64,000 bases of DNA from Streptomyces sp. NBC_01296 (GTDB lineage: Bacteria > Actinomycetota > Actinomycetes > Streptomycetales > Streptomycetaceae): the NCBI RefSeq assembly GCF_035984415.1, contig NZ_CP130720.1:2170001-2234000 (forward strand). Reading direction: 5' to 3'. Each line of letters begins with the position of its first letter. Positions within the stretch are counted from its first letter, which is position 1. Below the pieces are notes generated by a model. The model was not told where the DNA came from and ran no database searches. It worked only from the letters and a program-made list of their open reading frames with translations. The position numbers and the translations under genes are program-made. Below are positions 8,784-13,742 of this stretch, in pieces.

Positions 8784-9353
8784 CTACGCCCCGTCGTACA
8801 TCCCGAGCGTGCCGTCCAGCTCGAACCACACCACCTTGCCGCCGGCCTGCACCGGCGCGTCCACGCCCCAGGCGTCGGCGAGGGCCTGCACCAGCACCAG
8901 CCCCCGGCCGTGCGTACCGTCGTCGGCGGTCGGTACGTACGGCCGGGGCCGGCGCGAGGCGTAGTCCCTGACCTCCACCCTCAGCCGGTCCGCGGCGATC
9001 CGCGCGGACACCTCCGCGCCCTGGTCGGTGTGGACGAGGGCATTGGTGACGAGCTCGGTGATCAGCAGCTCCGCCACCTCCGCGGTGTCGGCCGGGCACC
9101 GATGGCGCATCAACTCCCGTAACGCCCGGCGCACCTCGCCCACGGCCTTGAGATCCGCCCGCCGTACGCTCCGGCTGATCTTCAGCGCGTCCACCGCTCC
9201 CCCGTCCTCGACGGACGGTTCACGCGGTACGGGCCGCCCTCTTCTCCACTGCTTCCCGGTCTTCGCCCCCACCCGCACGGCGATGTACCTCCCCCGTGTC
9301 CCACGGATCTCGAACTGGTCTACGGGATGCATGCCCGCCGGGGCAATCCGCAC
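8784..9353 (-). CDS. RsbW-like ATP-binding regulatory protein (HATPase_c)
   Basis: 189-aa protein with a C-terminal GHKL ATPase domain of the anti-sigma-factor type (about residues 60-185). The N-box is ELLITELVTNALVHTD and the G-box DDGTHGRGLVLVQALADAWGV. Streptomyces encode dozens of such single-domain ATPases, a few shown to be anti-sigma factors or to act with BldG-like anti-anti-sigma factors. No partner sigma factor or STAS gene is adjacent, so the target is unknown. The ATG at 9332 (residue 8) is an alternative start. Its start lies 10 bp from the stop of the split pyruvate oxidase gene on the same strand, so read-through from that gene is possible. Confidence 0.88.
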   Translation of the reverse strand: MRIAPAGMHPVDQFEIRGTRGRYIAVRVGAKTGKQWRRGRPVPREPSVEDGGAVDALKISRSVRRADLKAVGEVRRALRELMRHRCPADTAEVAELLITELVTNALVHTDQGAEVSARIAADRLRVEVRDYASRRPRPYVPTADDGTHGRGLVLVQALADAWGVDAPVQAGGKVVWFELDGTLGMYDGA

Positions 9354-9363
9354 TCCTGCGGGC

Positions 9364-10384
9364 TTACGGGCGCGGCACGTTGCGCAGGTTGGATCGAGCC
9401 ATCTGGATCATCCGGCCCACCCCTCCGTCCAGCACGATCTTGCTGGCCGAAAGTGCAAAACCGGTCACCATCTCGGCGCTGATCCTGGGTGGAATGGACA
9501 AGGCGTTGGGATCGGTCACCACGTCCACCAAGGCGGGCCCCTTGTGCCGGAACGCCTCCTTCAGAGCCCCGGTGAGCTGCTTGGGCTTCTCCACCCGGAC
9601 CCCGAAGGCGCCCGCCGCGCGCGCGATCGCCGCGAAATCCGGATTGTGATGGGTCGTTCCGTACGAGGGCAGGCCGGAAACCAGCATCTCCAACTCGACC
9701 ATCCCGAGCGATGAGTTGTTGAAGAGGACCACTTTGACGGGCAGGTCGTACTGCACCAGGGTGAGGAAATCTCCCATCAGCATCGAGAAACCGCCGTCGC
9801 CCGACATCGACACCACTTGACGGCCGCGGTCCGTGAACTGTGCGCCGATGGCCTGCGGAAGGGCATTGGCCATGGAGCCGTGGCTGAAGGAGCCGATGAT
9901 GCGCCGCTTGCCGTTCGGGGAAAGATAGCGTGCCGCCCACACGTTGCACATGCCCGTGTCGACGGTGAACACGGCGTCTTCGTCCGCGAGTTCGTCGAGT
10001 ACCGAGGCCACGTACTCGGGGTGGATCGGGGTGTGCTTCTCCACCTTGCGCGTGTACGCCTTGACCACGCCCTCCAGGGCGTCCGCGTGCTTCTTCAGCA
10101 TCCGGTCCAGGAACCGGCGGTCCGTCTTGGCCTTCACCCGGGCGTTCAGGGCGCGCAGGGTCTCCCGTGCGTCACCCCAGACGGCGAGGTCCAACTGTGT
10201 GCGGCGGCCGAGGTGTTCGGGGCGGATGTCCACCTGGACGATCTTCACGTCGTCGGGCAGGAAGGCGTTGTACGGGAAGTCCGTGCCGAGCAGGATCAGC
10301 AGGTCGCACTCGTGCGTGGCCTCGTAGGCGGCGCCGTAGCCGAGCAGCCCGCTCATTCCGACGTCGTACGGGTTGTCGTACTGG
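9364..10384 (-). pseudogene. poxB: pyruvate dehydrogenase/oxidase (PoxB-type), C-terminal half, separated by an insertion
   Basis: C-terminal half of a thiamine-diphosphate enzyme that oxidatively decarboxylates pyruvate to acetate and CO2. It contains the central-domain end (HECDLLILLGTDFPYNAF) and the whole PP domain with the ThDP/Mg motif GDGGFSM...NNSS. The homologous frame begins at QYDNPYDVGMSGLLG, exactly where the N-terminal half (10915-11655) stops. Upstream of that the frame runs into foreign insert sequence without a plausible native start; the first internal Met codon is at 10356. Both halves look undamaged otherwise. This fragment alone lacks the pyruvate-activating glutamate of the N-terminal domain, so it should be inactive as pyruvate oxidase. 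Confidence 0.88.
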
Positions 10385-10584
10385 TGATACCTGCGCGCGT
10401 GAATGCGAGCACGGCCCGCAAGGCCTCTCCGGCGGGTTGCGGCACCGGCCATCCGTCCCTGCGTCGCCGGTGGCCCGCTCCCGACAGGTGTCACTCGAAT
10501 GGAGTAACCAAACGCGCCACCCACATGGGTGAAGATCAAGCTGAGTAGTGCCCCAACCGAGGCAATCCGTGAAAGGGGAACCAC

Positions 10585-10803
10585 ATGCGCCTTCGACGAA
10601 TCTTCGCCGCCGTCATCGCCACGGCGGCCTTCGCCGGACTCGGCCTCTCTGGCGCCGCCACCGCCACCGCCACCGCCGGCAGCGTCACCCCGGCCAGCGT
10701 CACCCCGGGTGAGTGCACGGACAACGGCGGAACGATCGATCGGTCGACGCCCGTGCTCCCGACCTGCAGGGGCGGTATGTACGACGGGCAGACGGTCGAC
10801 TAA
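10585..10803 (+). CDS. small secreted protein inside the poxB insertion
   Basis: 72-aa protein with a textbook Sec signal peptide: basic n-region MRLRR, hydrophobic core FAAVIATAAFAGLGLSGA, and likely cleavage in the ATATA region near residue 30. The predicted mature peptide is about 40 aa with two cysteines (GEC... and ...TCRGG) that could form one disulfide. ATG 10585 has an AAAGGGG ribosome-binding site at 10573-10579. A perfect 9-bp hairpin follows at 10836-10862. The product is not recognised; as the only gene of the inserted segment it is either its cargo or a hitch-hiker. Confidence 0.75.
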   Translation: MRLRRIFAAVIATAAFAGLGLSGAATATATAGSVTPASVTPGECTDNGGTIDRSTPVLPTCRGGMYDGQTVD

Positions 10804-10835
10804 ACCCCACCAGGCCCGTTGCGAAAGTGGATCGT

Positions 10836-10862
10836 CGCCCCGCAGCCACGCGTTGCGGGGCG
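10836..10862 (+). terminator. hairpin after the inserted small gene
   Basis: Perfect 9-bp stem (CGCCCCGCA with TGCGGGGCG) around a 9-nt loop, 32 nt after the small gene's stop and inside the insertion. Its symmetry means it could also stop poxB transcripts coming the other way. Confidence 0.65.
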
Positions 10863-10914
10863 CTCCCGCGCGAGCATGCTGCAACATCACGGTGACACCG
10901 AGATACGTACGCCA

Positions 10915-11655
10915 CTAAGGATTGTCGTACTGGATCCACTCCTTGCCGCGCAGGGCGTGCCCGACGGGCGCCTTGACCCGGCCCGCGAACTCCATGACCT
11001 CGGGGTGCGCCCCGGCGGCGCCGCTGCCGCAGAACAGCGTGACCTTCTCGGCCTCGTCGATCAGCCGGACCAGCTTCTCGATCTCCCCGTCGCCGGGCCG
11101 TACGGTCGGCCGCGCGGTCACGAGCGCGTGCTCGATGCTCTTGTCCGGGGCCGGGAGGGAGGCGATGTCGCCGGGCAGCGAGATCACGCCGACGCCGCTG
11201 CGGCCGATGGCGTGCTGGATGGCGGTCTGGAGCACCCGGGGCGTCTGCTGTGGGTTGGAGATCAGCTCGCTGTAGTGGCTGCACTCGGTGAACAGCCGGT
11301 CGGGGTGGGTCTCCTGGAAGTAGCCGAGGCCGATCTCGCCGGAGGGGATGTGGGAGGCGAGCGCGAGCACCGGGGCCATCGAGCGGTGGGCGTCGTAGAG
11401 GCCGTTGATCAGGTGCAGGTTGCCGGGACCGCAGGAGCCTGCGCAGGCCGCGAGCCGGCCGGTGATCTGGGCCTCGGCCCCGGCGGCGAACGCGGCCGTC
11501 TCCTCGTGGCGGACCTGGATCCACTCGATGCCGCCGGTGCGCCGAATGGCGTCGACGACGGGGTTCAGGCTGTCGCCGACGACTCCGTACATCCGGCGCA
11601 CGCCGGCGCGTACGAGGATGTCGACGAACTGCTCGGCCACGTTCTTCTTGCCCAT
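10915..11655 (-). pseudogene. poxB: pyruvate dehydrogenase/oxidase (PoxB-type), N-terminal half
   Basis: 246 aa starting MGKKNVAEQFVDILVRAGVRR and containing the whole pyrimidine-binding domain of the ThDP enzyme, including the catalytic glutamate in VRHEETAAFAAGAEAQ and the GSCGPGNLHLINGLYDAHR segment, then the start of the central domain. It ends KEWIQYDNP followed by a TAG contributed by the inserted DNA at 10915-10917. The rest of the protein resumes at 10384. PoxB is normally a peripheral membrane flavoenzyme feeding electrons to quinones. Start ATG 11655 is 62 nt downstream of the PP2C-like gene on the same strand. Truncated like this it lacks the ThDP-diphosphate site and should be inactive. 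Confidence 0.9.
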
Positions 11656-11717
11656 GGAGGCGCGCCCTTTCCCGTTGCCTGCCGGGTACGCCTCCCATCC
11701 ATCCACATTCCGCGCGG

Positions 11718-13742
11718 TTACGCCTCCCAGACCGCGGCGGCCGTCCGGTCGTCGGCGTAGCCCTTGAGGCGGAGCTGGGTGTCCGCGAGGAAGGCGGCGA
11801 GGCCGGGGGGCTCCGGGTCGGCCCAGCGGGCCGCGAGTTCGGCCGAGAGGAGGCCCTCCTCGCGCATGGGGTCCGCGAGCCCGCCGGAGCAGAGCAGCAG
11901 GGTGTCGCCGGGCCGGGCCACGGCGGCCCTGAACCGGAACCCGTCCCCGCCGGTCTCGGTCGACTCGGGCTCTGGCTCCGGCTTCGGTTCCGGCTCCAGG
12001 TCCTCCCATGCCCCGGCCCGGAGCCGGAACAGGCCGCCGGCGCCCGCGCCGAAGCAGACCCGGGTCTTGCACTCGGGGTCGATGGGGAGCAGCAGCACGC
12101 GCAGGCCCGCGGTGTACGCGTCCTCCGGGAGCCCCAGCTCGGCGGCGTGCGCCCGCAGGCGGCCGTAGCCGCGGTCGGTGAGGCGCTGGAGCCCCGAGCG
12201 CAGGGCGTCGCGCCGGCCGGCGCGGATGTCGTCGGCGAGCCGCTCCCGGCTCCGGCCGACGGCCGATGCCATCCAGCGGCACAGCTCGACGGCGGCCTCG
12301 GCGGCGCCGGGGGCGGCCCGGTCACCGCCGGCGAGGGCCACGAGGACGAGGGCGTCGTCGCCGGTGCCGAAGCGGGCGGTCAGCAGGAAGTCCCGGCGGG
12401 CCTCGCCGCGGAACCGGGCGGAGTCCCCGCGCACGGAGGTGGCGCGCAGGGTGTACGTCCCGTGCCGGGCCCCCTCGAGGACGGTGTCGGGCACAAGCGC
12501 GTCGAGCACCCCCGGATCGGCGAGGGGCAGGGCCCCGGGCTCGGGGGCGTAGGTGGGCGCCCGGTCCCCCAAATACCCCACGACGGGCCGCTCCCCACCC
12601 GGGCCCGCGGCCCCCGGCCCGCCGTCGAGCACGGAACCTGCCCGCGACTGCCCTCCGGGACCAGGACCGGGATCCGACGCGGAATCCGGTCCGGCTCCGG
12701 GGCCTGCCCAGGGATGTGGTTCAGCACCGGCCGGAGGCTGCGGACCGGACCGCGGGTCGGCGTCGGCACGGGAACCGGCCCGGGGTCGGGCTCCGGGACC
12801 GGTCGACGGCTCGTCGTCGGAGACCGGCGACGGCGCGGCGGCGGGCCAGGTTCCCGGGCGGAGCCCGGTGTCAGGTCCGGCCCCGTGCTGCGCGGCGGCG
12901 GCGCCGGTTCCCGCACCGGCCTCCGGGCCCGACCAGGAGCCCGGCTCGGCACCGGAACGAGCCCCGGGCAGCAGGCCGGGACCGGAGCGCCGGCCGGGCT
13001 CACCCGAACCGGGCTCGGCCGGCCCGGACTCGCCCGCGCCGCGGTCGGCCGCGCCGGGGTCGGCCGCGCCGGGGTCGGCCCAGGCCTCGGGCCGGTGCCC
13101 CGTGCCGTCCCCGGCCACCGGCCGGGCACGTGGCCCGACACCGGTTCCGGGCCAGGGGCCCGTACCGGCGTCGGGTCCGGGGTCGGACTCCGGTCCGGGG
13201 ACGGGCCAGGAGCCCGCGCCCTGCTCGGGCGCTCGCTCGGGTGCAGGCCAGGTGCCGGAAGCCCGTCCGGGGGCGGGGGAAGGGGGCTCGGGCGGGGTGT
13301 CACGCGGGACGCCCCAGCGCCGGACCGGCAGTTCGGGCGGCTCCTCCGGGAGCGCCGGCGGCACGGTCACACTGCCGAGGCCGTATCCGGTCGTGCCGGG
13401 TCCCCGGGGGTCCCGGGGTGGCGGCGGCTCCGGCGCGGCCTCCCGCCGCGGCCCCGGCAGCACGGCATGCGGGGGCGCCCCGGGCGCCGTGGCCCCCGGC
13501 GGCGGCCCCGGCTGCGCAGCGCTCCCCGGCGGCCCGGCGTGCGGCGGTGGCGCGGGTGGCAGCGAGCCCGGCGGCCCGGGCGGCGCAGGCCGTGGGGCCG
13601 GTAGGGACGGGTCCGGTGCGGAGGTCACTGCCGACGCCGAGTGGAAACGGCTCTCCAGCGTGTCCCCCGGGTCCGGGACCGGTCCCGCGTCCGGGTCCTC
13701 GTACAGCTTCTGCCACCAGTCGTCCGCGCCCTGCTGACTCAT
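11718..13742 (-). CDS. PP2C-like protein phosphatase with long Pro/Gly-rich region
   Basis: 674 aa. After a short N-terminal segment (MSQQGADDWWQKLYEDPDAG) comes an approximately 370-residue low-complexity region rich in Pro, Gly, Ala, Ser and Asp, predicted disordered, then a C-terminal PP2C_2-type domain (about residues 430-674). That domain has GDDALVLVALAGGDRA, RLRAHAAELGL and DTLLLCSGGLADP, the last resembling the DG motif region with SGG in place of the usual metal-binding SDG. Several metal ligands of canonical PP2Cs are unclear, so activity is uncertain. ATG 13742 is preferred to the in-frame ATG 13802 because the hairpin terminator lies between. In-gene 15-bp repeats encode GAADP units. 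Confidence 0.8.
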   Translation of the reverse strand: MSQQGADDWWQKLYEDPDAGPVPDPGDTLESRFHSASAVTSAPDPSLPAPRPAPPGPPGSLPPAPPPHAGPPGSAAQPGPPPGATAPGAPPHAVLPGPRREAAPEPPPPRDPRGPGTTGYGLGSVTVPPALPEEPPELPVRRWGVPRDTPPEPPSPAPGRASGTWPAPERAPEQGAGSWPVPGPESDPGPDAGTGPWPGTGVGPRARPVAGDGTGHRPEAWADPGAADPGAADRGAGESGPAEPGSGEPGRRSGPGLLPGARSGAEPGSWSGPEAGAGTGAAAAQHGAGPDTGLRPGTWPAAAPSPVSDDEPSTGPGARPRAGSRADADPRSGPQPPAGAEPHPWAGPGAGPDSASDPGPGPGGQSRAGSVLDGGPGAAGPGGERPVVGYLGDRAPTYAPEPGALPLADPGVLDALVPDTVLEGARHGTYTLRATSVRGDSARFRGEARRDFLLTARFGTGDDALVLVALAGGDRAAPGAAEAAVELCRWMASAVGRSRERLADDIRAGRRDALRSGLQRLTDRGYGRLRAHAAELGLPEDAYTAGLRVLLLPIDPECKTRVCFGAGAGGLFRLRAGAWEDLEPEPKPEPEPESTETGGDGFRFRAAVARPGDTLLLCSGGLADPMREEGLLSAELAARWADPEPPGLAAFLADTQLRLKGYADDRTAAAVWEA
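13035..13079. repeat. three tandem 15-bp units inside the PP2C gene
   Basis: Three consecutive 15-bp units (13035-13049, 13050-13064, 13065-13079; the first differs at one base) encode the repeated Asp-Pro/Arg-Gly-Ala-Ala part of the disordered region. In-frame length means unit gain or loss would not disrupt the gene. Confidence 0.8.

Follow-up and report, generated by a model that had tools for sequence, protein, structure and literature searches.

In sigK-type intervening elements, a gene is split by an inserted element; elements of this type, gin included, are excised during sporulation, with the gene being rebuilt. The gin element, which splits gerE of Bacillus cereus, is described in the accessible part of PMC5595907. 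Among Streptomyces elements with large serine integrases, Samy integrates inside a host gene (PMC12924846, accessible part), and for phiJoe and the SCO2603 element the accessible part of PMC5311408 describes how the phiJoe attB houses elements whose size differs from species to species. The same text gives the architecture of a serine-integrase attP as 45-50 bp with inverted repeats and a spacer near 20 bp, adjoining the integrase gene (int). Finally, a CIME (cis-mobilizable element) has lost its integration genes and kept both attL and attR (PMC5704250, accessible part).

The locus considered here is a poxB gene interrupted by a short insert, found in a 64-kb stretch of Streptomyces DNA (the whole stretch analysed, hereafter the window). 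Its element resembles a CIME in having no recombinase and in its putative att-like boundaries, and a related locus in another genome (G197) has the layout of accretion, with a CIME-like unit in tandem with a second element. However, the CIMEs described there derive from ICEs and IMEs (PMC5704250, same part), whereas the units at poxB measure 70-549 bp, lie within a metabolic gene and have associated elements with phage-type serine integrases; by analogy, a mini-element at a serine-integrase attB may work like a CIME, at a far smaller size. The likeness to phiJoe- and Samy-type elements lies in an attP that measures about 45-50 bp, contains inverted repeats and precedes int, in an attB filled by elements of different sizes in different species, and in integration within a host gene; the difference is that the target here is poxB and that the window insert is without an integrase. 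In contrast to gin and the sigK-type elements, the window insert has no recombinase and no regulated excision of it is known.

Layout of the interrupted poxB gene

On the minus strand of the window, poxB is interrupted at the codons for QYDNP by 537 bp. The N-terminal part (10915-11655, minus strand) is open, ends QYDNP-stop and contains TPP_enzyme_N with the first part of TPP_enzyme_M, and the C-terminal part (9364-10383, minus strand) is open from QYDNPYDV to the native stop and contains the rest of TPP_enzyme_M with TPP_enzyme_C (Pfam families throughout). Since each part holds a portion of TPP_enzyme_M, the cut lies inside the central domain. An exact 12-bp repeat, TTGTCGTACTGG (CCAGTACGACAA on the coding strand), flanks the insert as a common core at 10373-10384 on the poxB-C side and at 10922-10933 on the poxB-N side, with a spacing of 549 bp; these are the two exact copies in the 64 kb, and sites with up to two mismatches number 9, against 1.89 expected. 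In extended form, the repeat at the insert measures 18 bp with 2 differences. Other poxB-like matches in the window's genome stand at 47% (with an internal stop) and 32%.

The insert consists of a conserved middle of 402 bp (10474-10875, plus strand) and ends that are less shared. This middle, the cargo unit, belongs to a family dispersed in Streptomyces and comprises (i) a conserved leader with the palindrome CACCCACATGGGTG (10518-10531), imperfect in some copies, (ii) the gene of a small secreted-type protein of 72 aa (10585-10803, plus strand), and (iii) a terminator-like hairpin seen in the sequence at 10836-10862 (plus strand). The 72-aa frame is the gene-like ORF of the insert, in which no integrase gene was found. 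The outer ends are TGATACCTGCGCGCGTG on the poxB-C side (10385-10401), which is P-arm-like as scored against random windows, and GATACGTACGCCACTAAGGA on the poxB-N side (10902-10921), which is common to other mini-inserts and unlike the phages found. A group I or group II intron was rejected, as no Rfam intron fold is found in 9300-11800 at E up to 1.

This layout bears out most of an earlier note on the locus, which had described a gene broken at the QYDNP codons with its halves otherwise intact, the 12-bp repeat with its spacing of 549 bp, and an insert holding a small secreted-protein gene and a hairpin without a recombinase. The significance which that note attached to a length divisible by three has to be dropped: other inserts at the site add 70 and 131 bp, and recombination from repeat to repeat restores the frame at any insert length, so that a multiple of three proves nothing.

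The poxB QYDNP codons as an attachment site

Comparison at the level of sequence identifies the QYDNP codons of poxB as the predicted attB of a Streptomyces phage family whose integrases are large serine integrases, so that a known system is involved after all. In Streptomyces sp. ISL-43 (L167), poxB contains a 6-kb element remnant that encodes a large serine integrase of 531 aa, in which Resolvase, Recombinase and Zn-ribbon domains are recognised; poxB is joined to the integrase gene at the QYDNP point, and the poxB-C side is truncated by 91 bp. Querying IMG/VR with this integrase gave three loci. The first (L285) begins in the N half of poxB and enters an integrase gene (76% at the amino acid level) exactly at the QYDNP point. 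The second, a 41.6-kb contig (L286, also L341), encodes a serine integrase with 63% amino acid identity to that of ISL-43 and has an attP-like site, ATACGCAGTAGCATCC-AGTACGACAACCCATACG-GGATGCTACTGCGTAT, directly upstream of int. There, CAGTACGACAACCCATACG, the QYDNP sequence of poxB, stands between perfect 16-bp inverted arms, and the best dyad is 19/24, centred CAGTACGACA|ACCC; this putative attP fits the serine-integrase architecture given in the accessible part of PMC5311408. The third locus (L287, 39%) starts inside the integrase gene, without a junction. Dyad symmetry of the attB was not used as evidence, being not special (the best half-site score, 8/12, falls elsewhere).

Against 50,697 phage records, the ISL-43 integrase has 739 matches, all of them less than 60% identical and the best listed at 36-37%. 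No close relative of it was found in the window's genome, where one match of 38% covers the N domain only; this serine recombinase match lies at G000:C1:1871006-1871476, in a 369-aa frame. The genome of strain AP-93 (G281) has four large serine recombinase matches, the best with 40% to the ISL-43 integrase, on the same contig as a 70-bp poxB insert. In the open-access literature, no report was found of poxB, pyruvate oxidase or pyruvate dehydrogenase as a Streptomyces serine-integrase attB, and the accessible part of PMC10276819 has nothing on poxB.

Recurrence, ends and cargo of the poxB inserts

In the empty site, as in G012 and others, the two flanks abut with an 18-bp overlap. Among 80 named loci, 46 are uninterrupted, their two poxB halves meeting at the QYDNP site (gap 0) with one repeat copy. 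The repeat is therefore not native on both sides, a finding that, according to the earlier note, would have spoken against a mobile element. Another 7 have both halves at another distance (2 of these being spurious short matches) and 27 are without a recognisable poxB half. Occupied poxB genes among these neighbours are of three kinds, at an identical position, namely with a small-gene insert, a 70-bp insert or the 6-kb remnant. The small-gene kind is found in S. roseus, S. yangpuensis and CG 926, with poxB decayed in all three; in NBC_01214, the small gene lies about 2 kb away from a poxB remnant. Integrase-less inserts at the same nucleotide position measure, with one repeat counted, 70 bp in AP-93, 131 bp in G319 and 549 bp in the window, and poxB is otherwise open on both sides of the insert in AP-93 and G319. 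G197 has a further integrase-less insert at this position, in tandem with phage-like remnants. The short common core is present in both junctions and single in empty sites, and recurrence at one nucleotide position of poxB is documented at the level of sequence.

A flank tree of 33 taxa (28 of the 80 named loci and 5 genomes of the G series) has occupied and empty lineages interspersed; the other 52 named loci were left out of this and of the poxB-C tree as too distant, incomplete or not needed. The poxB-C tree keeps the main strongly supported groupings, with many deep nodes weak and a support of 34 for roseus. In an rpoB/gyrB tree of 22 genomes, G012 (the first empty relative) stands beside G197 (0.916), and with 8 genomes region A (90) and A+B (63) place it outside the group of four occupied genomes, but region B (80) places it within that group. 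As these trees disagree on G012, one insertion would do for those five genomes. A vertical single origin of the poxB inserts was considered. Against it stand the interspersed occupied and empty lineages of the wider named sample and the inserts of roseus and yangpuensis, which group together in the small-gene tree (95) against their hosts, placed elsewhere (roseus with flavotricini, 100).

The flank tree has S. katrae as sister to the window genome; in this species poxB is mostly deleted and only a scrap of a G197-type small gene is left (93.7% over 63 nt). In the decayed C parts of occupied genes, synonymous and nonsynonymous changes number 4/46 in G223, 6/70 in roseus, 4/32 in katrae, 8/30 in yangpuensis, 12/33 in G062 and 19/19 in G197. 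The window poxB, counted against S-244, OV450 and flavotricini, has 10 synonymous and 2 nonsynonymous changes in its C part (259 codons) and 6 and 5 in its N part (189 codons); both parts are still undecayed, and the window's insertion is therefore young. Two functional half-proteins were also considered as the product of the split gene, the changes in the N part being too few to decide. In the best reading, which as a whole is given an even chance, the insertion inactivates poxB.

On the poxB-C side (coding strand), the mini-inserts read catacgcaggtagccc|CAGTACGACAA in G319 and in the middle site of G197, gtacgcaggtagccc in AP-93 and cgcgcgcaggtatcac in the window, and the phage attP has a counterpart, catacgcagtagcatc, at the same spacing. 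Similarity of ends was judged by counting, among 20,000 random pieces of the window, those that do equally well. With the phage attP arm as the reference, these number 0 for G319, 2 for the G197 middle site, 98 for AP-93, 621 for the window and 2837 for the G197 left site; the likeness of the window P-side arm to the phage arm is therefore weak (3% of random windows are as good), and against the G319 end the window end is equalled by 22. On the poxB-N side, the mini-inserts have CAGTACGACAA|ttcctaggg.tgtacgtatc or similar, the second end of the mini-element being TTCCTAGG...GTACGTATC adjoining CAGTACGACAA. Against the G197 end, 0 random pieces are as good as the window end, 1 as that of AP-93 and 443 as that of G319, whereas the P' arms of L286, L285 and ISL-43 are unlike it (2733, 7188 and 10552 as good). 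The mini-inserts thus appear to have one end that is phage-like and another that is their family's own.

A phage with these ends was not found in IMG/VR, where 4 contigs have a 16-base match, none of the 4 with an integrase or poxB, and where no contig has the 21-base P-side pattern; a search for the mini-insert ends in phage and plasmid collections likewise gave no match. The right spacer of the window insert has a 16-base match to L285. For the core-free end GGCTACCTGCGTAY, a search of 8 genomes gave a single occurrence in each of G197, G281 and G319, every time at poxB; the other 5 have none, among them the window's genome, whose own end differs from the pattern. A pattern of arm plus core is found in 5 of 392 genomes, four times at poxB and once (G259) without further similarity, and since it contains the core it is not informative on copies at other targets. 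When the AP-93 insert was searched in the 392 genomes as part of a query of 85 bp, the one full match was G281 itself, and a 29-bp partial match in G252 is without element ends.

Between their ends, the inserts have interiors of 27 bp (AP-93), about 90 bp (G319) and about 500 bp (window), which do not appear to be recognisable phage DNA; their heterogeneity argues against simple prophage remnants. That of G319 (L343) includes 37 bp of poxB in inverted orientation, a match equalled by 0 of 200 shuffles. This piece has 89% identity to the window's poxB and 86% to its own.

In G197, poxB-C is followed by core and arm, the small gene, a second arm with core and a repeated arm, and finally by blocks that recur elsewhere, an order of attL-like end, cargo, attP-like junction and remnant. 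Judged from their sequence, the blocks may represent a gene for a small membrane protein and the beginning of an HNH gene. Nine stretches with these blocks were fetched, five of which (L311-L314, L319) also hold a serine integrase relative, with no integrase in the fetched part of the other four (L320-L323); three integrase stretches (L316-L318) are without the blocks. By analogy, G197 would have a mini-element and a phage-like remnant arranged in tandem, the layout to which CIME accretion would lead according to the accessible part of PMC5704250; it is compatible with mobilisation in cis after the accretion of a full element. The remnant itself contains a 40-bp stretch with a CATTCG...CGAATG hairpin (L080:7401-7440), near-identical in most Streptomyces matches listed; a query that includes it matches 339 of 392 genomes at E up to 1e-6, most listed matches running through this stretch.

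The cargo has a wider distribution. At E up to 1e-10, 42 of 392 Streptomyces genomes have matches to the window insert, a figure that includes its own genome and a few matches that are partial; these matches run mostly through the 402-bp unit; together with insertion at the same nucleotide position in other lineages, they dispose of the possibility, raised in the earlier note, of a single-locus insert. A second copy lies elsewhere in the window's genome (76% identity), and copies on plasmids reach 89-90%. In two linear plasmid records (L039, L041), small-gene copies lie 1.5 and 9 kb from the record start, with transposase genes within a few kb. The 35 cargo copies fetched fall into 22 left-flank contexts, and in the right spacer of the poxB insert similarity extends well past the unit only in copies at poxB (G062, G197, G223). 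Many dispersed small-gene copies (L043, L044, L053, L054, L066 and others) lie between inverted ends, TGTCCGACGGGTCG...CGACCCGTCGGGCA with slight variants, which in some cases adjoin CTAG: a MITE-like carrier of the same small gene, distinct from the poxB element.

The 72-aa protein belongs to no Pfam family and to no NCBIfam family at E up to 0.1, its best PHROG match has E 0.085, and no relatives of it were found in IMG/VR. Among 50,697 phage records, the insert DNA has only two matches, both weak and partial, with E 9e-5 and a coverage of 10-14%. Small genes at poxB form three groups in the small-gene tree, a mosaic in which leader and coding part point to different relatives, and their grouping is read as probable horizontal exchange of cargo. 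Because the cargo unit is mosaic, independent insertions were not counted from this tree.

Origin of the window insert

The best reading, to which we assign about even chances, is an integrase-less miniature element at the poxB attB, placed there by a serine integrase acting in trans; this agrees with the earlier suggestion of a non-autonomous, cassette-like element inserted into an otherwise intact gene. Specifically, the 537-bp insert would be bounded on both sides by element arm, common core and poxB, its putative attL-like and attR-like ends being evident in the core and in part of the arms. Most likely, a related serine integrase would have acted in trans, its substrate being a circle whose junction is attP-like. 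The element carries a single cargo gene, which encodes the small secreted-type protein and comes with a leader and a terminator. Given an integrase and a directionality factor from an incoming phage, both of which should be needed, precise attL x attR recombination would restore poxB. As the poxB-N end of the mini-inserts is unlike the P' arm of the phages found, there is no candidate for their own integrase among these. The 70-bp unit of AP-93 is too short for a freely recombining circle, so that secondary deletion or another route must be allowed there. More tentatively, and with somewhat less than an even chance, the inserts may represent a mobile family of 70-550 bp without an integrase, consisting of two att-type ends around variable captured DNA (a host-gene piece or a small gene) and inserted repeatedly by phage serine integrases in trans at one poxB position, as a serine-integrase counterpart of MITEs.

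It is rather unlikely, if well short of implausible, that the window insert is what remained of a full serine-integrase element (phage or ICE) that had integrated in poxB and whose interior was then deleted, with attL, attR and a small gene, carried or later acquired, as the residue. Serine-integrase elements do occupy this poxB site, G197 keeps phage-like remnants beside its cargo and decay is obvious in several lineages, all of which would suit such a history; however, interiors as different as the 27 bp of AP-93, the roughly 90 bp of G319 with its inverted stretch of poxB and the roughly 500 bp of the window, whose gene was not found in viral collections, are unlike phage leftovers, and both ends are exact in AP-93, G319 and the window, within an otherwise open poxB.

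A classic IS or MITE is disfavoured as the mover of the poxB insert. For a target-specific MITE, with imperfect terminal inverted repeats of 15-16 bp and a target duplication of 11-13 bp, the probability seems low: the ends of AP-93, GGCTACCTGCGTACC...GGTACGCACCTAGGA, do adjoin a 12-13-bp repeat, and the ends are roughly symmetric about the repeat and not about the phage crossover point, but no copy at another target was seen (GGCTACCTGCGTAY in 8 genomes; the AP-93 query in 392), and the exact choice of a phage attB together with a CATACGCAG arm at the same spacing would be a coincidence. A regulated intervening element, akin to the sigK skin or gin and excised on cue to rebuild poxB, is very improbable; exact excision would restore the gene and both halves are undecayed in the window's genome, yet the insert has no recombinase, the genome has no close relative of the ISL-43 integrase and other lineages with an occupied site have a decayed poxB. 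A chance event, in which the repair of a staggered break captured a piece of DNA and duplicated 12 bp, would suit the heterogeneous interiors and the poxB piece in G319, but it is hardly credible given the same position in several lineages, the conserved ends and the coincidence with a phage attB, and a chance duplication is rejected by the recurrence at one position.

If mobilisation in trans is the true history, then serine-integrase phages have parasitic mini-elements down to about a hundred base pairs, and these mini-elements move single genes between species. The poxB attB, together with an integrase lineage for which even the best matches among 50,697 phage records stay below 60% identity, could become a tool for integration in Streptomyces.
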